A stretch of 64,000 nucleotides of DNA from Chloranthus sessilifolius (Eukaryota; Streptophyta; Magnoliopsida; Chloranthales; Chloranthaceae): the NCBI GenBank assembly GCA_021018995.1, contig CM037598.1, positions 71,752,671-71,816,670 on the forward strand. Direction: 5' to 3'. The first letter of the stretch is position 1. Every line of letters begins with the position of its first letter. Positions 16,019 through 47,776 of the stretch are shown here, in pieces. The notes under the pieces were generated by a model that was given only the letters and a program-made list of their open reading frames with translations, ran no database searches and was not told where the DNA came from. A program made the translations under genes and the position numbers.

Positions 16019-16316
16019 TGTTCGGCTTATTCTATGTATATTAAATTAAAGTCAACTCTTAGCCTATTGCAAGCACACAATAGATATTGTAGAGCTAGTA
16101 TAGGATTGTTCCCACGAGGAAGTGATTAACTTATTATGCAGCTTTTTATATTCTTATTTAAAAAAATTCTATTTATCTGTTAAGATTCTAAACTCCTAGA
16201 GAAAGATGAATAAAAGAATGGTTTTATTTAAACTAATTTATAGAAAATAAATCTTAAATCCTCATCTTTCCAGATTATGGTCGTCAGTCACAATCCTTCA
16301 AGTCTCGGATGTTTAC
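16019..16316 (-). repeat. 5' LTR of the Athila-like element, part next to the PBS
   Basis: It matches 2365-2660. It is interrupted after TTTAC (16312-16316) by chromovirus A and continues at 28205 after the repeated TTTAC (28200-28204). Confidence 0.88.
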
Positions 16317-16448
16317 TGTAACAACCCCAAAATTTCGAAACCGTACAAGCCATATGCCACGCACGTGTATGTGTGGTTCACAAGGAAACCTGGGTCAACA
16401 TATACACACAGTGTATATATGTGTGTAACATACTATATTTTTCCCTTC

Positions 16449-16469
16449 CTTTCACTATATAAGTGAAAG
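16449..16469 (+). promoter_or_regulatory. TATA box inside a perfect inverted repeat
   Basis: The TATA box ACTATATAAG is flanked by 8-base arms, CTTTCACT and AGTGAAAG, around ATATA. The same arrangement is kept in the 3' LTR near 26131-26151. It is followed by the pyrimidine-rich TCTCTCCCCTACG, suitable for a start site about 30 bases downstream. Confidence 0.75.
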
Positions 16470-16676
16470 TGGAGAGAAGTCTCTCCCCTACGTAACATAA
16501 TTTTAACCTAAATAGAGAGGAGGAAAATAGAGAGAGAGAAAGGACAGTCTTGTAGAGAAGAAAGGCTAAGGCCTTGTTGGAGTGTAAACCGGTCGAAGAC
16601 CTAGAGAGAAGGTCGGACCAGAAACGTAGAGATCTCTTCGAAGTAACAGAAATTCGAACGTTAGATCAAACCGATT

Positions 16677-18167
16677 ATGAGATCCGCCGATTTAGGTATG
16701 ATATAATGCTTGATAAGTGCTTAGGTATGTTTTAATGATAACCTACAATGTATTGGGCAATGGCCGATTAATTATATTAAAGATTTAAAGAAATAGGATA
16801 GATTTCTTGAAGAATCACGGAGGCTCTCGGCGATCTAAACATCTCGCTCGAGCGAGGACAGAATATATATATACCTGAGAACAAAGTACGTTCTGGGCTC
16901 GCTCGAGCGAGACCCATATTGAAGGAATAAGCTCACTCGAGCGAGGTATCACTTTAGGCTTCAGACACCTCGTTTTAACCGCTCGAGCGAGGCTAGGCAA
17001 CCGCTCGAGCGAGGTTAAGAGGTCGCTCGAGCGAGGCTAAGCAACCGCTCGAGCGAGGCACCAAAACTAAATTAAAATACTTTTATAAAAATATACCTCA
17101 TGTTAACTACGCACTCCAGGAGTGCTAGTGACCACTGGTGACCATTCTAAGGCATGTCCTTTCACATGAAATGTAGGTTGACGTGAGATCAGTACGTGTC
17201 ATCACTACGAGAAAGGACCACTGGGTTTTGCCTTGAGGTAGGGAACCTTATCGAAACATGTACATTGTTCAATTTCTCATATGTGTAGTACAGATCTAAT
17301 TGCTAAACTAAGTATCTCATCATGTCACATAAATAGAGCGTGCGTGTGTAGACTTCAGAAAATGAAGCCAGAGGTCCCAAGGGGACGCAAAAACTACAAG
17401 GTAAATACCTATATGATACGATATATCAGTAGCATCCCAGGGGTGCAGATGAGAATCAGTGGGGAAAAGAAAGTAAGGTGATAAGGCCTAATATATTAAA
17501 AATTAGCACAATCACGGTGAATAACTATATGTAAAGCACACTTGATATTTTTGTTATTTAAGGTTTGTTTAGAATACCCCACCGACGTGGCGGGATACCC
17601 ACGACTGACTCGGCAGGATATCCGTGACCGGTACGGCGGTTAATCCGTATACAGTAGCACATCCCAGGGATGTAGATTTAAGAGTAGACCCCGCCATCTA
17701 TGAGAAAGGGGCTTGGGCAGTATTCCCAGGGAATACAAATTTAATAACTGTCTAGTTAGACGACGATGGTGGGTATTCCATCGGGGCTCGATGCTATATT
17801 GCTCGGGGACTATTTAAGTTAAAGAGTTAAGTTATTAGGCCGAATTCACAACTAAACGAGTAAGGTGAGAAAGAACAAAACCATGCAAAGTAAGTAGTTG
17901 TATTCATCATTTTCTTCAGTTATTTCGATTGTCTTTCCAAATAGTAACATCAGATAAACTGTATTTTAAACTGCACAACATATATGTAAGAATTAATCTA
18001 TATGTTCTTTACGTTTCTCTACTGAGCTAGGATGTAGCTCACCCCTTAGACTATACGTCGCAGGTCCAACACTAGCGGCAACACAGGCTTCGAGAGACGT
18101 TGATCCAGAAGGTTCGGATTACGTGGCCGGAGAAGAGTTAGAACCTCCTCCTGAGGAATTCTTTTAG
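16677..18167 (+). CDS. Candidate two-exon acidic microprotein from the LTR of chromovirus A
   Basis: Exon 1 would run from the ATG at 16677 to TTTAG at 16695 (19 bases), exon 2 from 18064 to the TAG at 18165-18167 (104 bases). Together they give 40 codons plus stop with the frame kept. The residues encoded by exon 2 include DPEGSDYVAGEELEPPPEEFF, here shown only in part as GEELEPPPEEFF, an acidic and proline-containing tail. In the unspliced frame a stop lies shortly upstream and there is no ATG, so splicing would be required. In the 3' LTR the exon 1 ATG is ACG, so the start is not certain. No known family is recognised; conservation of the tail in other LTRs is the main support. Confidence 0.4.
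16696..18063 (+). other. Candidate leader intron in the LTR
   Basis: The donor is TTTAG/GTATGA and the acceptor CTATACGTCGCAG/G, giving 1368 bases. Families B (49779-51046, minus) and C (42758-44890) have a donor and the same acceptor block in the same relative positions. In all three the palindrome or hairpin array lies inside this interval. Splicing has not been shown; the evidence is the repeated placement of the signals. Confidence 0.45.
16843..17058 (+). repeat. CTCGCTCGAGCGAG palindrome array, 5' LTR of A
   Basis: About seven copies of the 14-base palindrome or its core CGCTCGAGCGAG occur at irregular spacing, the first at 16843-16856, others at 16898-16911 and 16932-16945. The same array is in the 3' LTR (26504-26742), which has one extra copy created by an indel near 26492-26520. 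Confidence 0.93.
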
Positions 18168-18266
18168 AAGTTCCTTACGTTTTGAGTGGTGAGTAGAGAG
18201 TACTCGTGGCTTGGCATGTCAAGTCCTTTCTTTTAAATGTAATTAAATACTATACCTTCCTTTTGG

Positions 18267-18306
18267 CGAACCATCGAGGGTGATAAGATTGTCATCAATG
18301 GTTCGG
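18267..18306 (+). repeat. Second conserved LTR hairpin, family A
   Basis: GCGAACCAT and ATGGTTCG flank GTGATAAGATTGTCATC, which itself pairs (GTGAT with GTCATC). It lies 100 bases after the microORF stop. The counterpart in the 3' LTR is 27944-27983. Confidence 0.6.
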
Positions 18307-18523
18307 GACAGTTCCTCTGCTCATGAATTGGCATGAGTGTTGAATTGTCTGTTGGTTGCTAGACTTTATTGAAATATGGAGACTTAGTTAGTTTAAAGCT
18401 TTGGTATTTTAAATTGTTGGCTTTTACTTGTTATATGATGTTCCGCATAGATTTAAGGTGCATGACCTGAGGGTCGTGCTGATGGCACGGATTTCGAAGT
18501 GATGAAATTTGGGCTGTCACAGT

Positions 18524-18535: not shown

Positions 18536-18609
18536 GTTTCTTCTAGAAATTCTGACAATCATTCTTTTGTCAGAGCATAGGGACTTTGGCTGACGAAAGT
18601 TAATTTCAT

Positions 18610-20011
18610 ATGCAGATCGTGATGTCTTCGGGAAGGAAAGGTCGACCAAGGGGTGGTCATGATAGGAACTTACGCAGTAGAGGTGAGTTTATCTCGCCAA
18701 CAAACAAAGTATCGTTGGGAGAAAGAGAAATTCCCGAGAGTAGTAGTCAAGGGAACAAAGACCAGGCCGAAAATCATGATCAAGACCGTCAGGGTCAAGA
18801 TCAGAGAGAACAAGATAGGATCAGGGAGAGAAATGAAGAGAGAGAGGAGCGTTAGAGGATGATGCACACTATGGAAACCATGGCGGCTGCCATGGCAGCA
18901 TCCTTGTCGGCTCAAAATACTGGTAATCATCATCAGCCACCTACATCTCCAGTAGTACCAACACCACCGGCAGTTTCAGCATTTACGGAATTTCGGAGGA
19001 TGAGACCTCCTAACTTTTCAGGGCAAGCAGACACTATGGCTACTGAAAATTGTCTAAGTGAGATGGAAAAGCTTTTCAACGTACTCACTTGCACGGAAGA
19101 TGAGAGCATCCGTTGGGCAGCGTACATGTTAGATGGGGAGGCTGGACCTTGGTGGAAGTCTGTGTCGCGAACTAGGGCTCAGGAGACCCCAAATGTACCA
19201 TGGACGTGGAATGAATTCTTGGAAGAATTCAATAAACAGTATTTCCCCGAAGTGGTGAGAAATCAAATGGAAGTACAGTTTTTACAACTCCAACAGAGAA
19301 ATATGACAGTAAGGGAGTACGGAGTGGAGTTCATGAGACTTGCTCGTTTTGCTCCTGACTACGTGGTTACAGAAGCAATGGAAACAAAGAGGTTTCAACA
19401 GGGTTTGAGGCCAGATATTCGAGGAGGAGTTGCTCCATTTCAGCTAAGAACCTACGGAGAGGTTATGAGTAAGGCACTAGTGGTGGAAGAAGAGAACAAC
19501 AACCGCTACCGTTAAAGGGAACAACAGGGAAGAACAAATGTGGATCAGAACAGAACTGGGAACTACGAGCCAATAAACAAAAAGCTGAGGTTCGTAGTAC
19601 AAAATCAGAGACAACCGTTTCAAGCAGGATGTGGGAGACTGACACAACAAAGCACATATCAAAGGTTTCCATTTCTGGCATCAGGGAGACCGATGAGATA
19701 TGAGAGTCCTGCCATTTCTACTGGAGCTACGGTAACACAAGGTTTCTCACGAGCTGCATCTTCAACACCAAAGGATACTTGTGCCAAGTGTGGCAAGTCC
19801 CACAAAACGGCTGATTGCAGACAAGGGATGCGAGGTTGTTTTAAATGTGGCAAGATGGGCCACATGATTAAGGACTGTCCTGAGGCAAACAAGGAGAAGA
19901 CAACTTCAGCTTCGATGTCACGACCAATTCAAGCAAGGAAAACGGTCGTGCAAGGGAGAGCCTATGCAGTCACTGCTCAGGAAGCAGGGAACGTGCATGA
20001 CGTCATCCAAG
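18610..20011 (+). pseudogene. Gag of chromovirus A (two in-frame stops)
   Basis: One reading frame runs from the ATG at 18610 through a basic, highly charged N-terminus (SGRKGRPRGG; DRQGQDQREQDR) and the Ty3-type capsid (FRRMRPPNFSG near 19000; ARFAPDYVVTEAMETKRF; FQQGLRPDIRGG). It ends with two CCHC knuckles, CAKCGKSHKTADC and CFKCGKMGHMIKDC, around 19780-19880. Stops at 18853-18855 (TAG) and 19513-19515 (TAA) interrupt the frame without shifting it. The frame ends in DVIQ followed by a splice donor, and joins protease through the intron at 20012-20177. Confidence 0.92.
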
Positions 20012-20177
20012 GTGAGACTCTTTTAAATTTAAGAAATTCCATTTCATTAAAATTTTAGATAGAGAAGGTGCATTCACTAGAAATAGTGTAGTTTCTTTTG
20101 CTAAACACTAAATTTATATGTGAACTAGGGGTGTGAATGGATGTGTAATTTATTGGATGTATGTATGTATACTATAG
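20012..20177 (+). other. Candidate intron between Gag and protease, chromovirus A
   Basis: CATCCAAG/GTGAGACT is a strong donor and ATACTATAG/GTAC a good acceptor, 166 bases apart. Removing it joins the gag and pol frames (phase 1, inside a Gly codon) without loss; unspliced, gag meets a stop at 20056-20058. Element B has the equivalent intron at 47627-47776 at the same codon. A block ATTTTAGAT...GAAGGTGCAT is shared by the two introns. Confidence 0.75.
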
Positions 20178-23790: not shown

Positions 23791-24010
23791 GGCTCGCTCG
23801 GGCGGGACTTCACACTCGCTCCCGCGAGAGCTACATAAAATAACAAACCTGACGTATTCTGGGATCGCTCGAGCAAAGAATAGTGACCGCTCGAGCGAGG
23901 TGTATTACTCGCTCGCGCGAGGTTTCCAAGCCGCTCGAGCGAGGCCAAATTATTATACCAGTTACCATTCTGTGCTCGCTCGAGCGATAACTAACGACCG
24001 CTCGAGCGAG
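23791..24010 (+). repeat. Second CTCGCTCGAGCGAG array, upstream of ORF3
   Basis: Eight variants such as CCGCTCGAGCGAGG, CTCGCTCGGGCGGG and CTCGCTCGCGCGAGG occur between the end of pol and the internal TATA box. The motif is the one in this element's LTR, but the flanking sequence is different, so it is not simply a duplicated piece of LTR. Confidence 0.9.
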
Positions 24011-24227: not shown

Positions 24228-25529
24228 ATGGCTTCTTCAAGCCCTAATCCCCAACTGAGGAAGCGAATGGCAACTCGGTCGCCATCATCGCGAAACAGGG
24301 CACCACAACAACAACAACCCCCACCACCACCACCACCCATCCCGATCCAACTAAATGATTGGTGGGGCACGAAAGAAATGGAAGCCGAGTGGGAAATTCA
24401 TCCCTCGTGCTTTATAGATCCGACATCCACAAAATGGACATCGGATTTCCTGACAAACCACCAACTCCGACCCTTACTTACACCATTTGGACCTCGGTAC
24501 TATCCGAGATTAGTCCGATTATTTTATCAAACCCTCAAAACCAATGTAAATGAGGACACCATCCTCGTCACAATTGACGGGAAGGATTTGTCTTTTGGAG
24601 GCGGCGATGTATCCGCCATCATGAACTGCCCTCTCACCTACACCCCGAGCCCAAACACTCAACCTCCACTTGTTGGGAACGTCGGGTTCCCGACGATCAT
24701 TGATGATATTACTGGCGGCGCGCCCGCATCGGGTCAATCCATCACCTGATCCTAGTTACCACCACACATGTAGTTTTTAGATATCATTTTCAAGAAAAAT
24801 TTACACCCTACCAGTCATGACCAAGAGCGTCGTGACACCATTTTACGAGCCTTGCACTCTGCCTTCCACAATAGGTGGTTTAGCGCTCCAATGGTCGTCA
24901 TTAAAGGCATGGTGCATGCCTATAAAAGAAATGTTAGGGGCGTTATCCCTCCACCGATCAACCGCCTCCCATACGCACGTCTTATATCCCGACTCCTCGA
25001 TGCACGTAATGGGAAGGATGGATTCAAGATCAACACCAGTGAGTTATCGTTTACCGATAACGTTGTACCCTACATAGCCCAAGACCTAAGCCGAAACCTA
25101 AAGGGGCTTCAAAACAGTGTAAACAAGAAAAGAGATCGTCAGGCTGCAAGGCAAGCACCACAGCCACCATCGACGGGATCAGCTACTCCCTCCACTGTGC
25201 CTCCACCAAATCTGCATACCACCAACACCAGTATGTTACGGGAGATCCTCCAACAGGTATGGGAGACCCGACTACATCAGCGGTTCCAGGAGGCGCTTCT
25301 CATCGACCTCATGGGCCAGGCATATCCGCAAACGTACCGACAGCGGGTTGCAACGATGAGAGATGCCATTTTTGGGACATCTAGTCCGGGCCAGGCTACT
25401 AGGACCACTACAGATGGTGCCACCCACGTCGGAGAGACCGTTGGTGATGGTGAGGGAGGCGATGCGGAGAGTGATGATGACGGGGACACAGGCGATGACG
25501 ACGATGATTACGAGGAGGGTGACGACTAG
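24228..25529 (+). pseudogene. ORF3 of chromovirus A, putative plant transposon protein-like
   Basis: A 434-codon frame starts MASSSPNPQLRKRMATRS and includes a poly-Gln and poly-Pro run. The core has RYYPRLVRLFYQTL, ILVTIDGKDLSFGGGDVSAI and, after three in-frame stops at 24747, 24753 and 24774, NRWFSAPMVVIKGMVHAY and NRLPYARLISRLLDA. The C-terminus is a Gln-rich helix region (MLREILQQVWETRLHQRF; LIDLMGQAYPQTYRQR) and a strongly acidic tail ending at 25529. The pattern of an FYxxL block, a GKxLSF block and a later IN-like block resembles the family named putative plant transposon protein; I recognise this by pattern only. It lies outside gag-pol with its own promoter-like sequence. Element B has a homologue. 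Function unknown. Confidence 0.8.
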
Positions 25530-25999: not shown

Positions 26000-28199
26000 T
26001 GCAACAACCCCAGATTTTCGGATCCATACAAGCCATATGCCACGCACGTGTATGTGTGGTTCACAAGGAAACCTGGGTCAACATATACACACGGTGTGTA
26101 TATGTGTGTAACATACTATATTTTTCCTTCCTTTCACTATATAAGTGAAAGTGGAGAGAAGTCTCTCCCCTACGTAACATAATTTTAACCTAAATAGAGA
26201 GAGAGAAAGGAGAGTCTTGTAGAGAAGAAAGGCTAAGGCCTTGTTGGAGTGTAAACCGGTGGAAGACCTGGAGAGAAGGTCGGACCAGAAACGTAGAGAT
26301 CTCTTCGAAGTAACAGAAATTCGAACGTTAGATCGAACCGATTACGAGATCCGCTGATTTAGGTATGATATAATGCTTGATAAGTGCTTAGGTATGTTTT
26401 AATCATAACCTACAATGTATTGGGCAATGGCCGATTAATTATATTAAAGATTTAAAGAAATAGGATAGATTTCTTGAAGAATCACGGAGTGAAGGTTTCC
26501 GCTCCTCGCTCGAGCGATCTAAATGTCTCGCTCGAGCGAGGACAGAATATATATATACCTGAGAACAAAGTACGTTCTGGGCTCGCTCGAGCGAGACCTA
26601 TATTGAAGGAATAAGCTCGCTCGAGCAAGGTATCACTTTAGGCTTCAGACACCTCGTTTTAACCGCTCGAGTGAAGCTAGGCAAGCGCTCGAGCGAGGTT
26701 AAGAGGTCGCTCGAGCGAGGCTAAGCAACCTCTCGAGCGAGGCACCAAAACTAAATTAAAATACTTTTATACAAATATACCTCATGTGAACTATGCGCTC
26801 CAGGAGTGCTAGTGACCACTGGTGACCATTCTAAGGCATGTCCTTTCGCATGAAATGTAGGTTGACGTGAGATCAGTACGTGTCATCACTACGAGAAAGG
26901 ACCACTGGGTTTTGCCTTGAGGTAGGAAACCTTATCAAAACATGTACATTGTTCAATTTCTCATATGTGTAGTACAGATCTAATTGCTAAACTAAGTATC
27001 TCATCATGTCACATAAATAGAGCGTGCGTGTGTAGACTTCAGAAAATGAAGCCAGAGGTCCCAAGGGGACGCAAAAACTACAAGGTAAATACCTATATGA
27101 TACGATATATCAGTAGCATCCCAGGGGTGCAGATGAGAATCAGTGGGGAAAAGAAAGGTGATAAGGCCTAATATATTAAAAATTAGCACAATCACGGTGA
27201 ATAACTATATGTAAAGCACACTTGATATTTTTGTTATTTAAGGTTTGTTTATAATACCCCACCGACGTGGCGGGATACCCACGACTGACTCGGCAGGATA
27301 TCCGTGACCGGTACGGCGGTTAATCCGTATACAGTAGCACATCCCAGGGATGTAGATTTAAGAGTAGACCTCGCCACCTATGAAAAAGGGGCTTGGGCAG
27401 TATTCCCAGGGAATACAAATTTAATAACTGTCTAGTTAGACGACAATGGTGGGTATTCCATCAGGGCTCGATGCTATATTGCTCGGGGACTATTTAAGTT
27501 AAAGAGTTAAGTTATTAGGCCGAATTCACAACTAAACGAGTAAGGTGAGAAAGAACAAAACCATGCAAAGTAAGTAGTATTCATCATTTTCTTCAGTTAT
27601 TTCGATTGTCTTTCCAAATAGTAACATCAGATAAACTGTATTTTAAACTGCACAACATATATGTAAGAATTAATCTATATGTTCTTTAAGTTTCTCTACT
27701 GAGCTAGGATGTAGCTCACCCCTTAGACTATATGTCGCAGGTCCAACACTAGCGGCAACACAGGCTTCGAGAGACGTTGATCCAGAAGGTTCGGATTACG
27801 TGGCCGGAGAAGAGTTAGAACCTCCTCCTGAGGAATTCTTTTAGAAGTTCCTTACGTTTTGAGTGGTGAGTAGAGAGTACTTGTGGCTTGGCATGTCAAG
27901 TCCTTTCTTTTAAATGTAATTAAATATTATACCTTCCTTTTGGCGAACCATCGAGGGTGATAAGATTGTCATCAATGGTTCGGGACAGTTCCTCTGCTCA
28001 TGAATTGGCATGAGACCGGAACTGTCTGTTGGTTGCTAGACTTTATTGAAACATGGAGACTTAGTTAGTTTAAAGCTTTGGTATTTTAAATTGTTGGCTT
28101 TTACTTGTTACATGATGTTCCGCATAGATTTAAGGTGCATGACCTCGAGGGTCGTGCTGATGGCACGGATTTCAGAGTGATGAAATTTGGGCTGTCACA
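26000..28199 (+). repeat. 3' LTR of chromovirus A
   Basis: The 2200-base copy begins TGCAACAACCCC (second base pair of the end mutated from TGTAAC) and ends GCTGTCACA. It repeats all parts of the 5' LTR: inverted-repeat TATA box, CTCGAGCG array (26504-26742), hairpin 27701-27720, microORF ending at 27842-27844 and second hairpin. Confidence 0.94.
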
Positions 28200-29715: not shown

Positions 29716-29860
29716 TGTAACGATCTCCAGATTTGACACAATAGTGATGAGGGTCCGGTCAGGCATAGGGCTATGACCATGACTACTAAGTTAGCCCAGC
29801 CCAGCCCATTAGGATAAAGGATAAGTCTACTACCATCCATTGGAATCGTCGGATTTTAGA

Positions 29861-29897
<37 letters not shown>

Positions 29898-30763
29898 TAG
29901 GTATAAGTACTTGAAGTGAATCACTTGAAACGGCTAAAATGGGCTAGGAGCTTAAAAATAAAAAGGCTTATACACTGAGTAAATAGAACTGACTTGCATG
30001 CACGGTATCCTTTGCTTTGGCTTTCATGAGATACCTTCCATATATATCAGCTCAACACAGACCTTTAAACCCAAGAAGCATATAAGATGCTTTGCAGCTA
30101 TATGAAAAACACGACTCCAATGAGTCATTCGCCATCTCCATGCACGCAAGAGGCATTTCAGCTATTATAAAGAGTGATTTAGCAACTTGGTTCTATTCTT
30201 CGTAGCCTAGGATATTGAAACCAAGAAACAATCCTAGTCATATGTAAGAAAGCTACACCACCTTGAACCCTTGTACATCCCCCTGAGAACTTTCGAACTG
30301 AAACACCAATACGATCAACCGATGAGAATTAGTTTTCCGATATCAAGTGCGGTGCACGGCGTTGGCATCGTTACTAGTCCATCCATGAATCGATAAAAAG
30401 GTAAACATAAAGCGCTTTCCTAAATTAAAATTAACATATAAAGAATCCGAATATACTCCATGGTATGGATTCTATCATTAGCAAAATGAAATAGATTCTA
30501 CCGAGATAATTGCAATGGATGTACTCGAGATTTTCGCTATAGGCCTGATAAACTGATCTATATGGCTGAAAAATTTAGAGTTACTTCATGCTACCTTTAG
30601 AGATTTACATAGATATATATATTCATATAATATATATACATATATATTATAAATATATATATATATATACAGAGAGTATATATATATAAACAAAATAAAG
30701 TTACAAAGACACCAAAGTCGAAGAAGCTCACCTGAACCTCGGCAAGCCAAAAATATACAGACT

Positions 30764-30904
30764 TGCCGCGGCAACCTTATAGGGTTGCTACAGCAAGAAG
30801 GCCAGCTGAAGGGCTTGCCGCGGCAACCTCATAGGGTTGCCGCGGCAAAGGGTTGCCGTGGCAAGGTGCTTGTCGTGGCAAGCCTTGAGTGTTGCCGCGG
30901 CAAC
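30764..30904 (+). repeat. TTGCCGCGGCAA palindrome array in LTR D
   Basis: Copies at 30764-30775, 30816-30827, 30838-30849 and 30893-30904 are perfect; 30786-30797, 30854-30865 and 30871-30882 are variants (TTGCTACAGCAA, TTGCCGTGGCAA, TTGTCGTGGCAA). The variants differ mainly by C to T changes at CG sites, as expected from methylation-driven decay. Confidence 0.93.
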
Positions 30905-31568
30905 CTCCACCAGGACCGGAGTTTGGGCAGTACCTTGTGCACTTCGGACCTTGGGTCCATGTGGGGTCCAAATGGATCTATCTATGGGTCTTGGCCCATT
31001 TATTGTCAATTAAAACACAGTCATAATCTGACTCTTAATAGCAAGCTATTTATTTTATCGTAGATAGGTACAACATGGTGCACATATATAGTTCGCGCAA
31101 TTTAGCCAAGGGTGATGATCTTGACGCATTGCGCTCCCATCTGATCGAAGCAAATCAGGTAGGGAATATCTATTGATATTGTATATTTATAAGCATATCA
31201 CTTAGTTTTTCATAGAAGCTTTGATGAATATTCCATAATAGAAGAAAGTTTGAATTTTATTTGAACTAATAAACTTGATGGATTAGTTATGAAGTAAACG
31301 GACTTGATTAGCCATTAATCTGATGAGAAGCAAAATATTAATATGAGTATCAACAGCATCTAGTACACATTACATAAATCAGAAAGAAATTCGGTTACCA
31401 GCCTATGAGCATAAATCAGTTTTGTAATGCTATTATATATTTTAGTCCAGTACACATTGCAACATAAAATCATACAGGCAAATGCATATCCTTGGTCATT
31501 CTACGAGATTCAGTATTCAGATTTTGTTACTTTCAATGTTCTTGATACGTTATTGCTCTAGTTTAAAT

Positions 31569-31777
31569 CAAGTGATCCCGCTAACTCGGGAGCTTGAGAT
31601 TCTTGAATCAAGTGATCCCGCTAACTCGGGAACTTGACAAGTGATCCCGCTAACTCGGGAGCTTGAAGTATTCTAGTCCAAGTGATCCCGCTAACTCGGG
31701 AGCTTGAAGTATTCTAATCCAAGTGATCCCGCTAACTCGGGAGCTTGACAAGTGATCCCGCTAACTCGGGAGCTTGA
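31569..31777 (+). repeat. Six-copy tandem hairpin array in LTR D
   Basis: The unit is AAGTGATCCCGCTAACTCGG followed by GAGCTTGA, repeated six times with spacers of 0 to 14 bases (AGTATTCTAATC in two). Each unit pairs CAAG with CTTG and CCCG with CGGG around CTAACT. Copies are nearly identical, so the array was amplified recently or homogenised. Confidence 0.92.
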
Positions 31778-32000
31778 CCTTGTTGTTCCCCTGTTTTCGC
31801 CTGCATGTATATTTGGTTTCAGATTGTTTCTCACACCTGTTACATCATGCATAAATTTAGCAGTTCAGCATGTTATTCATAAATTTATTTTATTTATGCA
31901 TCTCTATGAAAAAGTGATAAACTGTCAATATAGAATAACAATGTGATATTCTCTATTGAACTTTGATGATAGCTCATACCACGAATTCAATGTCTTAGTT

Positions 32001-32120
32001 GCAGAGCCTGACCCGGAGCACGTAGCAGATCCTACCTACGTGCCTAACGAGGAAGAGGGAGAAGAAGAAGACGACGACGACAAGGAAGACGATTTCGCGG
32101 AAGAGTTCTTCCCGAAATAG
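32001..32120 (+). CDS. LTR-embedded acidic microORF, LTR D
   Basis: After TTAGTTGCAG, an acceptor-like site in the same phase as in family A, the frame reads EPDPEHVADPTYVPNEEE, a long Asp/Glu run and the end AEEFFPK followed by TAG (32118-32120). The ending matches EDFFPK in family B, with different third bases (GAG TTC TTC CCG AAA against GAC TTC TTT CCT AAG). Low-complexity acidic DNA alone would not keep FFPK and a stop. No in-frame ATG is obvious nearby; the function is unknown. Confidence 0.45.
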   Translation, partial: AEPDPEHVADPTYVPNEEEGEEEDDDDKEDDFAEEFFPK

Positions 32121-32501
32121 GTTTGTAGCTTGGGATCTGAGGGGAAATGGGATTGAAAAAGAGAGGAATGTGAGGGATAAATTTATGGTATGTATAAATG
32201 ATATATGATGGTTTCAGACATATGTTTGGATGTATAGGTTTTCTTTTCACTATTTAGATGACGAGTGGCCATCATTGGTGAAAAGCTATACGTCAGATAT
32301 GTTATGTTGTTTATAGTGTTTATAGTCTATCTATCAGTTTATTTTGCCATATTATCCATCTGTCAGAGTAAAAATACATTGCTTCAGCATTTGCATCACT
32401 TTAAATTAAAGAAGTAACCCCTTGATGAAAGGATCATGTCAGGTGATCCGATGGCGCGACCTTTCCCGATTTTGAAGACGAGGAAACGTTGGACTGTCAC
32501 A

Positions 32502-34084: not shown

Positions 34085-34314
34085 AAACTTGTGACAGCTC
34101 GGATTTCGGCACCATGCCATCAGATCACCCGTTAGGGCAATCCCACGCTTATACGAACACTTGGCACATCTACAAAACTAATACACAAAACTATCTCAAA
34201 TAAGAAGATAGAAAACATTAAACGCTTCAAAAGAAACAACATTTCCAAAGTAAACTTTGATCACAATAACGGTTCTAAACCTCATGCCAATTGCATGAAT
34301 GTAAGAACCAAAAC

Positions 34315-34354
34315 GAACCATTGGTGATAGATATCTATCACCAACCAATGGTTC
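34315..34354 (-). repeat. Second conserved LTR hairpin, family B
   Basis: GAACCATTGGTGATAG and CTATCACCAACCAATGGTTC pair almost completely around ATAT, the strongest version of this hairpin in the window. The 5' LTR copy is at 49532-49571, with one loop change. Confidence 0.85.
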
Positions 34355-34460
34355 ACAAAATAATGTCCAAAATATATTACATGACCAATATAACTCAAAA
34401 GTGGCTGAACGTACCAAGCCAAACAAATACACTTCTAACAGCTCACACACGATCTCAAAT

Positions 34461-34569
34461 CTACTTAGGAAAGAAGTCCTCCGGCGGAGGCTCAATCTCT
34501 TCTTCAAGAACGTAGTCTGAATCCTCCTCTTCATTTTCAAATTCCTTCTCTAAATCCTCACATGTGACG
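34461..34569 (-). CDS. LTR-embedded acidic microORF, family B (3' LTR)
   Basis: On the minus strand, after the conserved ACTATACGTCACATG block (CAG mutated to CAT here), the frame encodes an acidic peptide ending EEEIEPPPEDFFPK before TAG (34461-34463). The 5' LTR copy (about 49680-49779) has the acceptor intact (GTTACAG) but has lost one base in the GACTTTTTCC run, which shifts its stop. Differences from family A in the shared tail are mostly at third codon positions. Confidence 0.42.
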
Positions 34570-35040
34570 TATAGTCGAAAGGGTGAGCTTACATCCAAGC
34601 TCAATAGGGGAAAACATTAGTCGCATTTAAATCTCATATCACAAGCATGAAGTCACATAACTGATTTTCCATAGGCACATTTCACATTTTATTTCCAATT
34701 GAATTTCATATGCAAAATTTGAATCACACACATGCTTGAATCGCAGACTTTATTTTAAAACATTTGGCATAACTTAAATACTTTTCTAAGCAAATATAGC
34801 TTTAGAAGCCGCATATAATACCGATGGGAATCTAAACCATCGTTGTTCAATGAACCATTCAAAACACATATATTACCATTGGTCGGTAAGAAAAATTGAA
34901 CGGATATCCCACCGTACCGGAGTACAATAAACGAATATCCCGCCGTATTAGAGCACAATAGATTCATTTTACTAAATCTTAAATCAGCGTACATTTTCTA
35001 ACTTATAGTTTCACACTGTGTAAAGTGATGCCTTAGACTA

Positions 35041-37410: not shown

Positions 37411-38075
37411 AGAGTTTCTTCTAGATTTGAGTTTTTCTCAACTCGATCTTCTCCATATTTCCTCCACACTTCTTACACATCATATTAAACACTTTATTAA
37501 CAAAATTCATGTATTAAAGTATCGATTTCTCACCTTTAACTCAATTATTCGCTCGTAGATCGGATCGTCTTCCTCTTTGCAACAAAGGGTTTCAACAACC
37601 CATTTTGATCTCACCGAGCTCCACGATCTCCACCACGTCGACACAATCGTATGTCAATCTCTCACACACACACTTTGTACAAATCTCACTAGGATCAGTG
37701 GATCATAACACAAGAAATCAAGAATCCCTTTCTCTTCTCTTCAAACCCTTTCTCCTTTCTCTCAAAACTCTAAGTTAGCAAACCCACCCAATGAGTTTCA
37801 CACATGGGTTTCACTTATTATCCAAGCAAATGACTTTGCCTCTTTGCAAAGCGCAACTACAGAAGTTTTGTGTTACATAGCCACATATACTCACTTGGTA
37901 TTAAACACATATATACAAAAGTGTATATTACACATGTCCACCTATTCTTTTGGTGTGAGACACATACACACCAAAGTGTGTACATTCTCACGGGTTCCCT
38001 TGTGAACCACACACACCACATTCACACACACCACTATTTGACTTATGTGTTTGCCCAAAATTTGGGGATATTACA

Positions 38076-38110
38076 TGCACCCCACCTTATAAAATTTTCG
38101 TCCTCGAAAA
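38076..38110 (-). other. Hairpin and polypurine tract of chromovirus B
   Basis: On the minus strand TTTTCGAGGACGAAAA (38095-38110) is followed by TTTTATAAGGTGGGGTGCA and the 3' LTR. It is nearly identical to the equivalent in chromovirus A. Confidence 0.88.
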
Positions 38111-38926
38111 TTGACCAAGGTTACCTAGATGTAACCACACACAATAACGAAATTATTCACATCCTAATATTAACGATATCTAATAAGAGAAACCATGTGG
38201 TCAACAAGAGTGTACGCAAACAGTCCAATCATCTAATCTAGCATTTGGTCAATAGTGACCCACAATCAAACCTGTATTAGCACGTAATTACATGAAAAAT
38301 TTTAAAACCACGTAAAAATATAATCCACATCTCGCCATAATAGTAACTCAACACCATGCCCATTTAATCCCTAATCCACATCCAAAAACCAACCGTACAT
38401 TCACACATAGTGAATAAACCACAATCTACTTTGGTGCAATGAAAAAATTTCAAAATCAATACATGGCTCAAAGTAAACCATTCACATGTCCTACTACAAA
38501 CATAGCCACAACATACATTGGTAATGGGTTTAACAAGCTAATTCATGCGCAGTCAAGTATGACCACACATTGCCACACATAGGTACTTGCACAACAAGTC
38601 CTCACATTCCAACCATGGATGGAAATTCTAAGTCATTCACAAGTAAACCATGCATACTAGAATGCTAAGCCATTGCAACTAAAAATTTTAAACCATCCAC
38701 AATCTAATTAATTACCCCATTCTCAAGAAGCAAACATATACATTTAAACATTAAACCATTCACATGACAAAACAAATTTACTTCAAAATTTTTAAACAAA
38801 TTTCCACGTGACAGCCATGTCACCATAGTTTTTCGAACGTGCCAATCAAAATTATAATTGATTGCTCTCATTATATTTTAAATTTTGAAAATGTCTCAAA
38901 ATGATTCACAGAATCACTACCGGCAG
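38111..38926 (-). other. Untranslated stretch between ORF3 and the polypurine tract of B
   Basis: About 800 bases rich in A and C on the plus strand, with repeated AACCATTCACA-like words. No open frame with recognisable domains and no structured repeats were seen. Confidence 0.5.
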
Positions 38927-40269
38927 CTAACTCTCATCGTCACCGCCCTGATCCGACTCCTCATCTCCAGAATCATCCTCTCCAAAACCTGACTCGCCCT
39001 CGGTCTCATCACCGTCATCGGCCGCCTCGCCATAGTCATCATCACCATCACCATCAACCTCATCATCCCCAGTGTCGGCAGCCGTGCCAGAGCTGGAAGC
39101 ATAAAAAATCGCATCTTGCATAACGAGAAGGTGCTCCTGGTAGGTCTGCTGATAGGCCTGGTGCATCAAATCTATGCTAATTGCCTCCTGAAAACACTAA
39201 TGCAGCCTAATCTCACGGCTCTGCTGGAGTAACTCACGGAGCATCTCATCCTAGGTACTCGTCATAGGCTAGGCTGGAGGTGGCATACTAGTGTGGGCAG
39301 TCAGGTGTGGTACAGGTTCGGGTTGAGGTGTTTGTTGGTGTGCCGCTTGTTGTGCTATCTCTCTCTCTCTCCCTCTCTCTCTCTCTCTTTATTTTAACTT
39401 TGTTCTGTAGGCTGTGCAGGCTTTGGGTTAAGTCCTTGGCTCGATAGGACTTGATGTTATCAGAAAGTATGGGCTCGTGAGCTTGAATCTCAAAACCATT
39501 AATTCCATCTCATAATTTGAACAATCTTGAAATCAATCGGGCATAAGGTAACCGGTTCACAGGTGCGGGGAGAGCACCGGGTCTATTTTGGTCATAAGCG
39601 TGCTTAATTGCTTTTCTCACCAGAATAGGCGCACTAAACCACCTACCCTAATCAGTCACATAAATTGCTTGGAGAAATGGGTCCCTTCTTTCTTGTTTGT
39701 GGCCCAAGGGAAACAAATTCTTCCTAAATATAATGTCCAAGGGCCACATGTGTTCCAGTAACTAGACCTGTGTGATCGACTTACCGGTGTCGGTCGCACC
39801 ATGGGTCATGTTGCTCACAATGTCCTTAAAATCAACAACTTCTCAGATTGGGGATTTTGAAGCCCCATCATCTACATACTCAAGCGAGCAATCCATAGCG
39901 TGTGTGAAATATCCTTGTCATCAAAAGTGAATGGTCGTTGGTAAATCTCACAAACCAACTTGGTTTGAGCGTCATTCATCTTAAAGGTTAGGTAAAATAG
40001 TTTTACAAAACGGGGGTAATAGCGTGCGTGAAACGGCGCTAACAACGGTTTCAATTTGTTGGCTTTAATGCAATCCAACATCCATTGGGTGGATGGTTGA
40101 TCCTCAAAAACATCCCTATTGATCGACCATTCAGGTTCAAAAATTTTATTTTCCCACCTGGGGCAGGTTGGGTCAAAGGAGTTGACGGAGGAGCCGCCCT
40201 TTTGCGAGAACTTGGCGGTCTTATCTCCATTTTCTTCCTAGGTTTGGGGTTTTGGGATGTGGAGTCCAT
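38927..40269 (-). pseudogene. ORF3 of chromovirus B
   Basis: The start is the ATG at 40267-40269 (MDSTSQNPKPRKKMEIRPPS), matching the N-terminus of ORF3 in A. A frameshift near 40080 leads to ARYYPRFVKLFYLTF and the FTFDDKDIS block. Further on, with stops, come WPLDIIFRKNL, GRWFSAPILVRKAIKHAY and NRLPYARLIS, and the C-terminal MMHQAYQQTYQEHLLVMQDA and a long Asp/Glu tail ending at 38927. An insertion of a CT repeat lies at about 39356-39390. The similarity to A runs through all parts, so this is an ancestral gene of these elements and not a chance acquisition. One TAG is at the same position as in A. Confidence 0.8.
39356..39390 (+). repeat. CT microsatellite
   Basis: A run of CT dinucleotides broken by two CCC, inside the degraded ORF3 of chromovirus B. 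Confidence 0.9.
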
Positions 40270-40466
40270 TCTAGGGCTTGTAAATCAAAATAAACGAAAA
40301 GGAGAGTGAAATGTGGTTCTAGATTACCTTATGCGCGTAAAAATCCGTTAGTATGGCGGAGAAATCCGATAAATCTCATTTATGCAAAGCCCCACGCGAA
40401 AAACTCAAACCCTAGCTCTCCCTCGTCTTAAAATTTTGAATGAAATGTTGACAGGAAGGGTAAAAC

Positions 40467-40477
40467 CCTTATATAGT
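40467..40477 (-). promoter_or_regulatory. Internal TATA box for ORF3 of B
   Basis: ACTATATAAGG on the minus strand, about 200 bases before the ORF3 ATG. CTCGCGAG-like palindromes lie just upstream (40485-40625), as in chromovirus A. Confidence 0.6.
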
Positions 40478-40875
40478 TTGTTCCTCGCGAGTGCTACTTA
40501 AGATAGCTCAGGTGAGCGAGTGTCAGTCACTCACTGGAACTCGATTTCTTTTTGTTCTTTTTTTTTTTTTTTTTTCATTTCTGAGTGGCTCGCGCGATCG
40601 AGCATTAACTCCTCGCACGAGCGAGACTCGGGCATATGTTCCTGAAACAATTTTGCCTATATTTTTCGTTTCTTTCACTTTTATTTTCTAATTTTAACTC
40701 GTTTAAGATGTATTTTCGCTTCTAATTTGTTACCTATTGGCCACACATATTGATCGATCATAAACACGACCAATCGTCGATGGTTTTATCATTTACGCAC
40801 TTATGTGGAACAAGATAAATCAATTTCTTCACATTATATTCACAAATTTGTTCAAAAATTTATACAAACTAGACA

Positions 40876-41943
40876 AAGCTCATGTAAACAAATTCGGGTA
40901 CGCATCACGCACGTCCGACTCACATTCCCATGTGGCTTTTTCAGGCAAATGGTTCCGCCCCTGCACAAGTACCAATGGAATCCTCTTCGTGCATAGCACT
41001 TGTTCCTTTCGATCCAGAATCTACACCGATTCTTCCTTAACCGTCAAATCCTCTTGAATTTCGATAGGTGCATAATCCAATACGTGTGTTGGATCCTTCA
41101 CATATCATCTTAGCATTGAGACATGGAATACATCATGCATGCTTGAGAGTTGCGGTGGGAGTGCAACTCTGTAAGCAACCTCTCCAACACATCCTAAAAC
41201 CTCAAAAGGTCCTACGTATCATGGACTCAGCTTGCCACGCTTTGCAAAACGCGTAACGCCCTTGGTAGGTAAAATCTTGATGAAGACAATATCTCCCGTC
41301 TGAAACTCCACGCTTGTCTTCTTTAGGTCAACATAGCTCTTCTGTTTACTTTGTGCGACCCTTAATCTCTCTCTAATCACACATACCGCTTCAGTGGTAC
41401 TCTCAAGAATCTCCGATCCCAAAACAAATTTCTTTCCTGTTTCCTCCCAATTAATTGGAGATTTACACCGTCTACCATACAAAGCTTCATACGGTGCCAT
41501 ACCTATACTTGTCTGATAGCCATTGTTGTATGCGAACTCGATCAATGGTAGATGTTGATCCTATGAGCCCTAAAAATCTAGCATGCAAACTAGTAGTAGA
41601 TCCTCTATGATCTGATTTACACGTTTAGTCTGACCATCTGTCTGTGGATGAAACATTGAACTAAAATCTAGTCTAATTCCCATCCCTTCTTGAAATTTCT
41701 ACCAAAATTGAGAAGTATACAATGGATCTTGATCGAAAACTATGCTCACTGGAATACTGTGTAACTAAACGATCTCTCTCATACATATCTGCCAGTCTAC
41801 TCACAGTATACGTCGTGTTATAAGGCAAAAAATAGGCCGATTTAGTCAACTTGTCAACGATCACCCAAATAGCATTATACTTCCTCATAGTCCGTGGTAA
41901 TCCTAAGATAAAAACCATAGAAATAGATTCCCACTTCCACTTG
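40876..41943 (-). pseudogene. Integrase core and chromodomain of B
   Basis: From the right: KWKWESISMVFILGLPRTMR and YNAIWVIVDKLTKSAYFLP (41951-41820), a region with shifts, then EFAYNNGYQTSIGMAPYEAL and GRRCKSPINWEETGKKFVLG (41545-41400), VFIKILPTKGVTRFAKRGK, the GEVAYRVALPP block, and a chromodomain ([28 protein letters not shown]) at about 40880-41000. It is cut at its right end by solo LTR C and continues at 45283. Confidence 0.9.
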
Positions 41944-42899
41944 TGTAACATCCTGAAAATTTTGACTTTGAATAGTATACCTCGATGTGCGTGCTCGACT
42001 GGTCATGTGCCTGATTTTGTGAAATTAATTAAGTGAGTTATTTCAAGATAGATCTTAAGTAGAAGAGGATTGATTTATATTGTGTGTTAACTATTTGATG
42101 GTTTCATATACATCAAACCTTGGTATATTGGCTCAACACTGTGTACGATTGATGGATGGTTTGGGTGTGTAGGCCCACACCGAATCAAAGATCATTTTGT
42201 TATGAGATAACACCTAACTAGGTACATTTGTTTCACAAGGGAGCTAGGTCCTTGGAATGAGAATTAATATAACCAAAGTGGAGTATATGTGTTTTGTATG
42301 GGAACTAGTCCCATTGAGTTAAAGAAAGGAAATGCTTCCTTTGGAAGCTACCTGGTTTGCAAGAGAAAGGGTTTTGGATTTAGAGAGAGAGAAAAAGGGA
42401 AGAGAGAAATAGGAAGAAGGAGACAAACTCGAGGGATTGCGCGTCGAGCGTTAGATTTGTGTGAAGAAGGTTTGTGAGATCATGTAAGGGGAGGAACGCA
42501 GTTGGTTTCGACGTTTGGTTGTGTTGCGAGATTTGGAGCCGAATGGGGTTTTGAAAACCCATTCTTCTCACAAAGAGATGTGTGTTTGAGTTGCTAATCG
42601 TAGTGAGAGTTGTGTGAAGTGTGTCTGGAATGATCGCCTACGATTACGTTGGCTTGGTTGTGATCATGGAGCTCGTAAGAGATTGATGTGGGTTTTGGAA
42701 ACCCTTTTGTGCAACGAAGAAGACGATTCGATCGGGGAGTAAATCGATGGATTAAAGGTAAGAAAATTTATGTTAAGTTGAGATTTATAATTGTGTTAGT
42801 TTTTAGTGATGATATAAGTGAAATATTTGAAGAAAATAAGTTAGATTTGAGGAAAATTGAGCTTTAAGAAGTGAAAACCCGAGTTTGGGCGAAATATGA

Positions 42900-43070
42900 C
42901 GAAGCCGTTCGTTCGAAATAAGTAATCAATCGATCAATTTTGTCAAGAATGAAATCTGAAGGTTTCGAGTCAGTTGGAAAACCGTTCGATCGGTTTTAAA
43001 AACCGTTCGAACGAAATAAGCAACCATTCAATCGGTTTGAAATCGTTCAGTCGATTTTGACTGTGCTTAC
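42900..43070 (+). repeat. Degenerate CGTTCGATCGGTTT motifs in LTR C
   Basis: AACCGTTCGATCGGTTTTAA and AACCGTTCGAACG, CATTCAATCGGTTTG and CGTTCAGTCGATTTT are variants of a palindromic core (TTCGATCG or TTCGAACG). The position inside the candidate leader intron matches the CTCGAGCG arrays of A and B. Confidence 0.7.
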
Positions 43071-43814
43071 CGACACTGCATTATTATTTTGACTATAACT
43101 TTCTGCTCCGATCTCTGCTTGCTATAATTCTTTATGATTGAAAAACTTGTGAATCAACTGTTTTAAAGGTTAAAAGTGAGTGAGAAGTTGGGTTAAGTTC
43201 TGAGTTGGCATGTTTTGACTGAAGTGCCAAAATTGTTTCGGTATTTTTGCCATAACTATTTACTCTGAACTCTGATTTATGCGAATCTTGAGGCGTTAGA
43301 AAGAGAATAATAAGATCTATAAATTTTATGAATTAATAATTTTATAAATCTAAAGCTTTGATGGTCAAAATTTAGGGGGAAATTACATCAAATTCAATTA
43401 TTAGAGTTAATTCTTGATGATGTAGATTAATAGCGATGGCCATCGATAGGACTTTGCTTGGCTCCGCGTAACTTCAAGGGTTAAGGTAGGGGAACTTCAA
43501 CACAAACTTACATGTTTGACTTTGATTCATAATTCTTTTATATGTTTGCATAAAAAATGATAAGTTTGATAGTGATTTAAATTAGAGCTTGAACTCCTTA
43601 TAAATTAGAATTTGAAATCTTTTAACTCCGAAATGTGAATTTTGAACTGTGAACTTAATCTAGAATTTTTATCATGGTATTTGAATTAAACTTGATCTTT
43701 AAATTGTGAGTTTTGAAACCTTTAAACCAAGAATGTGAGCTTTGGTCTGTGATTTAGGAATTTGAACTAGAATGTGAACTCGAAATCTTGGAGTCTTGTA
43801 GATCTGTATGAATG

Positions 43815-44245
43815 TACTCCATTGGACCGCTTTTGCGGGATTTATGTACACCCTTGGACTTCATTGTGATTATGTACACCCTTGGACCGCTTTTGCGGGA
43901 TTCATATACGCCCTTGGACCACTTTTGCAAGATTTACGTACACCCTTGGACTTCGTTGTAATTATGTACATCCTTGAACCGCTTTTACAGGATTCATGTA
44001 CGCCCTTGGACCGCTTTTGTGGGATTTACATACTCCTTTGGATACCTTGTGAATGTACACCCTTGGACCGCTTTTGCGAGATTTACGTAAACCCTTGGAC
44101 TTCGTTGTGCTTATGTATACCCTTGGACTACTTTGGCGAGATTCATGTATGCCCTTAAACCGCTTTTACAGGATTTACGTACACCCTTGGACTTCGTTAT
44201 AATTATGTACTCCCTTGGACCACTTTTGCAGGATTTTACGTACTC
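43815..44245 (+). repeat. CCGCTTTTGCGG hairpin array in LTR C
   Basis: A unit of about 30 bases, CCCTTGGACCGCTTTTGCGG plus GATTTACGTACA, recurs about nine times and alternates with CCCTTGGACTTCGTTGT-type units. CCGC and GCGG form a stem around TTTT; several copies have lost it by C to T or G to A changes (CCACTTTTGCAAG). Confidence 0.9.
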
Positions 44246-44289
44246 TTCGGATTATATTTCATGAGTCAAGCCATAAGTCATGAGATTAA

Positions 44290-44430
44290 AATGGACCGCT
44301 ATGGGCGGATTATAAGTATGTGGACCGCTATTGGCGGATTATGTGTATGTGGACCGCTATGGGCGGATTATGCGTGTTGTGGGCCGCTATGGGCGGAATA
44401 TAAGTACTAAGTGGGCTGCTAGGGCGGAAA
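44290..44430 (+). repeat. CCGCTATGGGCGG tandem array in LTR C
   Basis: Five units of about 29 bases carry TGGACCGCTATGGGCGGATT, the last degraded (GGGCTGCTAGGGCGG). The stem is CCGC with GCGG. The array follows the CCGCTTTTGCGG array after 40 bases. Confidence 0.92.
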
Positions 44431-45282
44431 TCGAAACAATTTTTGTGTGTGTTAAGGAAGTGCTTTTATAAGAAAATGTCTTGAAATCAATTTTGGTGTG
44501 ATGAGGAAGTATTTTCATAATCAATTTTGTGTAATAAGTGTTTTCGAAATCAATTTTGTGAAATAAGGATGTGTGTATGAAACTAGTTTTGTGTAATAAG
44601 GAAGTGTTTTGAAATCAGTTGTGTGATAAGAAAATTAATTTGAAATCAGTTTTGGTGTGTTAAAGAAATGTCTTTGAAATATATTTTGTGCAATAAGATA
44701 GTGTTTTGGAAATCAGGTTAGTGTGATAAGAAAATGTATTTGAAATCAGTTATGTTTGATAAGAAAAGTGCCTTGGAAGTTAGTTTCAGTTTTAATATGA
44801 AAACATTTGATTTTGGCATTGAATCTATGTAGTATTAAATTTTCCTCTGCTGAGCTAGGATGTAGCTCACCCTTCGACTATACGTCACAGGTATAGCATC
44901 TATTTGGACACCGGACTTGCAGATTGAGGAGTTGAGGAGTGCTATGATGTCCGAGGATCGTAGATTGAGTACTTTCTGGAGTTTGGTGGGTTCGAACTTG
45001 ATACCCTTTGTACTAGTATATAATTTTGTACACCACTGTTTGGTGATGGTTGGCCATCATTGGTGATTTATTTGAGTTATTGTAATATTAGATATTAGAA
45101 TTAGAGATTTATTTATGCCATATATTATCTACTTTGATTTTTCGCACGTGTGTGGATGTACCAAGTATTCTGTATAGATTGTGATCTACGATCTGGCAGT
45201 CTGGGTTTTCCATTTGGTAAAATGAAAAAATATATATGTCTCAGGAAATTCAGGTTGGAAAAATCCGGGCTATCATAACTCG

Positions 45283-47626: not shown

Positions 47627-47776
47627 CTAAATTATATACACACTACAAATTTAAATACACATCCAAAGAAACATAGAAGTCATCATAGAATAAAATTTTC
47701 TACTATCCTATGTATGCACCTTCTTAATCTAAAATTTAAGTAAGAAATTTAATAACTTTAATTAAATGTTTTATAC
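47627..47776 (-). other. Candidate intron between Gag and protease, chromovirus B
   Basis: On the minus strand the donor is AATCCAAG/GTATAA and the acceptor ATAATTTAG/GTATG, 150 bases apart, phase 1 inside a Gly codon. The Gag end (NNGIIQ) and protease start correspond residue for residue to those of chromovirus A around its intron. Removal restores the frame. Confidence 0.75.

Follow-up and report, generated by a model that had tools for sequence, protein, structure and literature searches.

Protein-coding sequence that lies inside or overlaps a 3' long terminal repeat (LTR) and is reached through splicing is familiar from animal retroviruses, as in sag of mouse mammary tumour virus and nef of human immunodeficiency virus, which encode unrelated proteins. 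To our knowledge, the mechanism that gives an excess of Gag in plant Ty3/gypsy elements with a single-frame gag-pol is not settled. The available part of a 2025 review describes plant LTR elements as generally intron-less, with Ogre and EVADE as notable exceptions. For BARE1, a Ty1/copia element of barley, the accessible text reports a 104-nt intron at the end of gag that is spliced to give a Gag-only RNA (PMC3735527). Here we analyze a 64,000-nt stretch of Chloranthus sessilifolius DNA (contig CM037598.1; the window), which looks like plant DNA and contains nested Ty3/gypsy elements. Several LTRs of its chromoviruses, a group for which we take Tekay to be the clade name, carry a short conserved module with an acidic reading frame. 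Our tentative reading is that this frame may encode an alternative, acidic tail of Gag, reached when a gag donor otherwise spliced to protease is spliced to the acceptor in the 3' LTR, and that the 5' LTR copy of this acceptor would end a leader intron.

The module had been described in six copies from four LTR families, and all six lie where they were placed: 511-654 (family A'), 18024-18167 and 27701-27844 (A), 34461-34602 and 49680-49817 (B, minus strand), and 32001-32120 (D). Its order of parts, namely a hairpin, the ACTATACGT motif, CAG, an acidic frame and a stop, holds in general and with one fixed phase, except that the B copy at 34461-34602 has CAT as acceptor and that hairpin and motif are weak in D. 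In the 5' LTR of element A (copy A1), the hairpin TGAGCTAGGATGTAGCTCA occupies 18023-18041, the CAG ends at 18063, and the acidic exon frame with its stop spans 18064-18167. The 3' LTR copy (A2), which is the one proposed as terminal exon, has its acceptor end at 27740 and its frame at 27741-27844. The frame lies at 551-654 in A', at 34461-34561 on the minus strand in the 3' LTR of element B (B1), and at 31999-32120 in D, where either TTAG at 31998 or CAG at 32004 gives the identical phase. In the 5' LTR of B (B2; 49680-49778, minus) the CAG is intact and the frame is broken close to its end: it has a 1-nt deletion and PSL in place of PPP, and the -EDFFPK end is lost. Net charge of the tail ranges from -8 to -17 across the four families. 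A seventh module, beyond those reported, lies in family E at 44851-44890 and consists of hairpin, CGACTATACGT and CAG without an acidic tail.

The hairpin pattern of A has four matches in the window at up to three mismatches (A', A twice and E; not B or D) against 0.07 expected, and CGACTATACGTNNCAGGT has seven against 0.18 expected, one of which (63607) is unrelated. D is the most diverged copy and was missed by both searches; its ACTATACGT is diverged and its weaker hairpin has a mismatch and is absent from the minimum-free-energy fold. The stem is kept in B with a changed terminal pair and one extra nucleotide, and because of this insertion relative to A the hairpin part is not read in one frame across families. 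Together with ACTATACGT, the hairpin is predicted to sit upstream of a splice junction. As the key feature of the module it was rejected, since the folding z-scores of five copies (-0.85, -1.18, -0.70, +1.09 and -0.95) were all non-significant. A second conserved inverted repeat, AACCAT..GGTGAT...ATCA(T/C)CAATGGTT, was seen near the 3' end of the LTR in A', A and B, with traces in E (about 18266-18306, 34310-34355 on the minus strand, 770-810 and 45025-45065).

Selection on the acidic frame was assessed from the copies in the window, because no plant relative was found in the collections searched (viral contigs, genome contigs and proteins), which are probably poor in plant DNA. The earlier note had counted six differences between A' and A in the last 12 codons, all at third positions, and we find the same. 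Over 34 codons including the stop, these copies show 28 differences, divided 5/6/17 by codon position. Under random placement of changes this gives P = 0.0003 for third positions and P = 0.003 for amino-acid changes, values which, like the other P values here, are not independent data because the region and frame were chosen after the pattern had been seen. No comparable effect is seen in the two other sense frames. Within the acidic frame the last 15 codons carry the clearest signal (0/1/7; P = 0.0006 for third positions and 0.05 for amino acids), and that of the first 19 is marginal (5/5/10; P = 0.06 and 0.04). The remark that B and D also differ mostly at third positions is borne out by 5/6/14 over 24 codons of B1 and A1 (P = 0.004 and 0.0004) and by 0/0/5 over the last seven codons of D and B1, although these comparisons share lineages. 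For B1 against A1, blocks of 12-24 codons ending at FF have P values of 0.004-0.035 (third positions) and 0.0004-0.062 (amino acids), the shortest block of 12 codons giving 0.035 and 0.062.

The proposed check by the ratio of nonsynonymous to synonymous divergence (dN/dS, NG86), run on these copies, gave 0.22/1.06 = 0.20 for A' and A, 0.32/2.01 = 0.16 for B1 and A1, and 0.48/1.17 = 0.41 for B1 and A', and this range of 0.16-0.41 favours coding. As a coding control, 75 reverse transcriptase (RT) codons of A and B with stop codons dropped differ by 12/4/43, a comparison that returned no dS value. When the A'-A alignment was scanned in 101 overlapping ungapped windows of 99 nt in three phases, the 12 strongest of the 303 tests fell on the acidic frame. 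The absence of indels from the tail is not significant (2.05 expected, P = 0.13). Antisense coding was rejected: one antisense frame shares the third-position excess by geometry and has stops, and another is free of stops and shows no excess. The codon-position bias supports protein-level selection on the acidic frame, and it is likely that the frame is, or recently was, translated.

The same region can be read without any translation, as the 3' end of an LTR leader intron followed by a purine-rich exonic enhancer, with the codon pattern being chance or a relic. Donor and acceptor signals in the LTR hold independently of any coding, and A' and A agree most closely outside the coding part, at 42 of 46 sites compared with 76 of 104 in the tail. 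In addition, the region was picked with the pattern in view, family E retains the splice module without the tail, and a frame of tail length is open in 8-34% of shuffles and thus not rare alone. However, the third-position excess recurs in A'-A, B-A and B-D and peaks on the acidic frame, and an enhancer would not predict that -PPPE(D/E)FF and a stop survive synonymous change. We regard an untranslated module as somewhat unlikely.

If the frame is translated, its start has to be located. The earlier note took the peptide for an LTR microprotein, which is poorly supported, as no in-frame start is shared among copies. A contiguous in-frame ATG exists in one of six copies, namely A' (position 448, 68 residues to the stop), and is absent from A1, A2, B1, B2 and D. 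When the frame is joined to LTR exon 1 in the required phase, one of six copies again has an ATG: A1, where removal of the predicted LTR intron would leave ATG AGA TCC GCC GAT TTA G|GT CCA in frame. A2, B1, B2, D and E lack it; B1, B2 and D stop two or three codons before the donor, and E is open without an ATG. A' is represented by the 3' portion of its LTR (1-1012), so its exon 1 lies outside the window. Both ATGs would favour a microprotein or upstream open reading frame (ORF) that starts within the LTR, either contiguously or by splicing of exon 1 to exon 2, but neither is shared among copies; this explanation was rejected and we consider it very unlikely. As the contiguous frame has no conserved start, an upstream coding exon is the simpler reading, and without a shared start in the LTR the tail reads best as a terminal exon that begins elsewhere. 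The module is consistent with a 3'-terminal coding exon requiring an upstream coding exon; the feature is real and probably coding, and we reinterpret it as a terminal exon rather than a free microprotein.

Candidates for the upstream exon come from A and B, the only two elements in the window whose internal regions are of this type. Element A has a 5' LTR at 16317-18521 and a 3' LTR at 26000-28199, a blastn pair of 95.9% identity with TG...CA ends, and the target-site duplication TTTAC occurs at 16312-16316 and again behind the 3' LTR. A primer-binding site candidate follows the LTR in A (TTGGTATGAGAGCG) and the 5' LTR in B (TTGGTATCAGAGCG), both of which we take to match initiator Met tRNA, and a GGTGGGG run upstream of the A 3' LTR is read as the polypurine tract. 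Between its LTRs, element A contains gag, a CCHC knuckle, protease, RT, integrase, a chromodomain and a post-pol sense ORF, with Pfam matches to Retrotrans_gag, zf-CCHC, RVP_2, RVT_1, Integrase_H2C2, SH3_Tf2-1 and Chromo (PF00385). This is the chromovirus order gag, protease, RT, RNase H and integrase with a chromodomain at the integrase end, the RNase H of A itself lying outside the Pfam scan. Element B lies on the minus strand in a layout like that of A, with blocks of 67-68% identity common to both. D is a solo LTR (29716-32501) with the 5-bp duplication AGTTC, and E is a solo LTR of a fifth family (about 41944-45277).

The gag of A up to its donor occupies 18622-20011 (plus strand; Retrotrans_gag and zf-CCHC by Pfam) in a single frame, with two in-frame stops that mark a decayed copy. 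We compared GT sites common to the aligned coding sequences of A and B (130 site-phase entries, some sites in more than one frame, over 2291 codons in 29 high-scoring segment pairs). Five shared entries, two of which are the same site, reach a donor score of 2.0 in both elements, and the highest minimum score is found at the end of gag (A 20011, TCCAAG|GTGAGA, 4.4; B 47777, TCCAAG|GTATAA, 3.1). This donor falls at the same codon and in phase 1 in both elements. Behind it, between zinc knuckle and protease, a GT...AG intron of phase 1 is predicted in both: 166 nt and 72% AT in A (20012-20177, plus), with 39% T against 19% and 29% in the flanks, and 150 nt and 79% AT in B (47627-47776, minus), with 44% T against 17% and 30%. 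The intron has stops in all three frames in A and B, and its removal restores the protease reading (...VIQ^ in A, ...GIIQ^GMLQMYRKGDYLCYEASRVLIDPG in B), an Ogre-type arrangement in which coding regions are separated by an intron and become one polyprotein frame when it is removed. The two introns share a near-identical internal block, AAATTTTAGAT..AGAAGGTGCAT, and much of the remaining intron is diverged; the block holds an acceptor-like TTTTAG and, nine bases on, a donor-like AAG|GT.

In A', A, B and D the tail has phase 1 relative to its acceptor. Because gag donor and LTR acceptor have the same phase, gag can be joined in frame to the 3' LTR exon. The conceptual joins read ...VIQ^GPTLAATQASRDVDPEGSDYVAGEELEPPPEEFF in A (VIQ^GPTLAATQ...EPPPEEFF) and ...GIIQ^GEDLEKEFENEEEDSDYVLEEEIEPPPEDFFPK in B (GIIQ^GEDLEKEF...EPPPEDFFPK), and they end 33-34 residues past the junction. 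The end of pol was rejected as partner, as it offers only weak GTs near the chromodomain end, with maxima of 2.4 in A and 1.7 in B over about 310-320 nt per element.

In the mechanism we propose, LTRs of this chromovirus group would bear a short coding exon downstream of a 3' splice acceptor. The 5' LTR copy of this acceptor would close an intra-LTR leader intron, some 1.3-2.1 kb long (3.0 kb in B1), and the 3' LTR copy would create the terminal coding exon. The phase-1 donor of gag would normally be spliced to protease, giving Gag-Pol; alternatively, it would skip pol and use the acceptor of the 3' LTR, and the resulting short mRNA would encode Gag with the tail -EPPPE(D/E)FF(PK) and a stop. 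RNA left unspliced would be the genomic form and would yield a Gag whose short end is not under selection. For an intron to persist inside the LTR, reverse transcription would have to use such unspliced RNA as its template. Since a single RNA is the source of both LTRs, selection acting on the 3' copy would preserve the 5' one. An acidic tail beside the basic nucleocapsid could moderate RNA binding or assembly, and the tail product may set the Gag to Gag-Pol ratio or alter the behaviour of Gag. The sequence itself shows the codon-position bias of the tail, the phase that the copies share, the intron-like composition around the LTR sites and the gag-protease intron structure of both elements; the junction between gag donor and LTR acceptor, the synthesis of the product and its role are what we infer. 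That the group uses its LTR as a terminal coding exon, with one duplicated splice site governing both the leader and the choice between Gag and Gag-Pol, is possible but doubtful.

The leader part of this mechanism is suggested by composition. A TATA box candidate lies about 140 bp into the LTR of A (16456-16461, plus, in the context TATATAAG) and at the same place in A2. Downstream of it a leader donor is predicted at 16695-16696 (TTTAG|GTATGA), with homologous predicted donors at 26362 (A2), 51047 and 37534 (B, minus), 30400 (D) and 42757 (E), corresponding to LTR positions 378 (A1), 362 (A2), 542 and 522 (B), 686 (D) and 814 (E). They score 3.5 in A, 4.4 in B, 4.0 in D and 6.3 in E. Across each of the six donors the AT content (100 nt) climbs from 55-57% to 70-79%. 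Across the module acceptor it is the T content that changes: the six copies with a tail drop from 33-39% to 10-27%, and E drops from 37% to 31%. From these intron-like steps we conclude that the LTRs probably contain a leader intron, with the module as the matching acceptor. The predicted intron of A spans 16696-18063 (plus) and its 1368 nt contain 25 ATGs, against one ATG in the 248 nt of predicted exon 1 (16448-16695 in A1). The other predicted lengths are 1378 nt in the second A copy, 1268 in B2, 2972 in B1, 1598 in D and 2133 in E.

Three further observations concern these leader regions. Just upstream of the A gag ATG, an acceptor-like ATATGCAG occurs at 18590-18625, and its use together with LTR exon 1 would leave a short leader without the primer-binding site. 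Repeats based on CGCTCGAGCGAGG are found at 16958-17081 and 26642-26765, in the predicted leader intron, and at 23866-23967, upstream of the post-pol ORF, as though that ORF had an LTR-like regulatory array. Tandem AAGTGATCCCGCTAACTCGGGAGCTTGA repeats lie at 31569-31777 inside the predicted intron of solo LTR D.

A donor near the start of gag would give the terminal exon a different partner. This second candidate, at 18682-18683 (plus; GTAGAG|GTGAGT), scores 5.2, and its B homologue at 49054 (GGAGCG|GTGAGG) scores 2.0; both are in phase 1. Joined to the first 20-21 gag codons, which are basic (GRPRGG in A), the exon would encode 52-54 residues in all, basic at the head and acidic at the tail, a layout comparable to the accessory proteins made from multiply spliced retroviral RNA. 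Of 30 sites in A that score at least 3, six are in phase 1 with an ATG frame open for 10 residues or more, and this donor scores highest among them. A precedent is found in the nuclear export protein of Cer1, which the accessible text derives from a spliced mRNA sharing Gag sequence (PMC3315495, PMC10309623). On the other hand, the B donor falls under the cut of 3.0, the site may just specify Gly-Glu, an in-frame stop interrupts the gag head of the B copy, and no intron start is evident there. Such a protein is improbable.

Equally, the tail could belong to another spliced product, such as the post-pol ORF or a protein with an unrecognised first exon, which we also think unlikely. In two chromovirus families this ORF follows the chromodomain and precedes the 3' LTR, and in A and B its Asp/Glu-rich end is close to that LTR. 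In A it spans 24228-25529 (plus) in two pieces, 24228-24749 and 24852-25529, of which the first has a weak, sub-cutoff match to PF20167 (Transposase_32) and the second has none in Pfam. Its B homologue, recognised by eye, lies within 38000-41100 (minus), and a 91-residue piece of it has no convincing Pfam match. As a tail partner the ORF was rejected, because in A and B alike it terminates ahead of the LTR with an acidic end and stop of its own, distinct from the LTR tail. The donor-like GTs near its end score at most 2.5 in A, the element scored. The strong donors within it, A 25256 (5.9) and B 39785 (6.3), each lack a strong counterpart at the matching place in the other element.

Several points weigh against an alternatively spliced, LTR-encoded Gag tail. 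The splicing is a prediction from sequence, and the matrix behind the donor scores is approximate. Within single elements the donor at the end of gag is not the top-scoring one, as the 4.4 of A lies below eight listed sites and the 3.1 of B outside the 14 highest, and the LTR donor of A is weak at 3.5. The phase agreement between gag donor and LTR acceptor is expected in one case of three by chance. Exon 2 of A retains 13 ATGs up to the gag ATG, so a leader intron alone fails to clear the leader. The B copies are decayed, one by its CAT acceptor and the other by its frameshift, E keeps the splice module without the tail, and A' has its contiguous ATG. Furthermore, a Gag-only product does not need the LTR tail, because intron retention alone yields one.

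Elsewhere in the window, adjoining ORFs with a BED zinc finger (just below the cut-off) and DUF659 lie at 59793-60841, a pairing known from hAT transposons.

Searches for relatives of the elements gave little. One pattern had eight matches in viral contigs, all judged unrelated on their translations, and two others had none. A protease-RT query picked out four stretches of viral contigs and an integrase alignment 27 stretches of genome contigs, none of which was confirmed, and the pattern search of genome contigs returned nothing. Among proteins, not one of 32 candidates for the tail alignment reached E of 10 or below, and not one of 486 for the C-terminal half of the post-pol ORF reached E of 0.001 or below. 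Literature searches within open-licence PubMed Central turned up no account of the tail itself, of a Gag end or tail encoded by an LTR, or of a chromovirus gag-protease intron, which is a weak absence given that scope.

If the proposed splicing is true, the gag-protease intron and the LTR-encoded Gag tail would be a directly testable answer to the question of Gag excess in a chromovirus. LTRs, including solo LTRs, may then carry a ready-made acceptor and coding exon, which bears on gene annotation and on transposon exonisation. The gag-protease intron by itself would place a chromovirus among the few plant retroelements that contain introns. A first comparison is with CRR, the rice centromeric element. 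CRR is likewise a gypsy element that splices, its rt being said to be spliced out, and the accessible text on it mentions no LTR-encoded tail (PMC3735527). Ogre, a plant Ty3/gypsy element that is not a chromovirus, has a partly spliced intron between coding regions that is needed for the full polyprotein; its position differs, as the intron here lies between gag and protease of a chromodomain element, and the available account describes no LTR exon for Ogre (PMC6317226). Additional ORFs give plant Ty3/gypsy elements, including the Tekay clade, extra coding capacity, but those in the accessible descriptions lie in the internal region, 5' or 3' of gag-pol, and none inside an LTR (PMC7264820, PMC11728184). 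The Cer1 CERV protein of C. elegans, from a Ty3/gypsy element, also arises from a spliced mRNA that joins Gag-shared to other sequence, whereas its mRNA has five exons, the protein is about 60 kDa, the element is animal and the text available mentions no LTR exon (PMC3315495, PMC10309623).

Other likenesses concern spliced RNAs for Gag only or for truncated GAG. BARE1 resembles our elements in a small U-rich intron at the end of gag and in a choice between Gag and Gag-Pol made by splicing; it is a copia element, not Ty3/gypsy, and its spliced RNA is, in the portion of the report available, Gag only, with a stop three residues past Gag (PMC3735527). Here, splicing of the small intron would instead give Gag-Pol, and a conserved tail would come from use of the distant 3' LTR acceptor. 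Nanopore direct RNA sequencing of sunflower Tyran and Varan recovered short spliced isoforms encoding truncated GAG, while the accessible text mentions no LTR exon and Tekay elements are absent from that expressed set (PMC7730604). In Arabidopsis, shGAG of the Ty1/copia element EVD/EVADE is made by alternative splicing from GAG past the protease domain with a stop soon after the junction, as far as the available text describes it, and its new end arises by frameshift, whereas here the end would be a selected LTR exon (PMC12786077). A donor at the end of gag conserved between families, as that strategy would have it, is found in A and B, which are two elements only. If the splicing is confirmed, these chromoviruses would show a new form of the known Gag-splicing strategy, with an unusual coding use of an LTR that is usually regarded as regulatory only.

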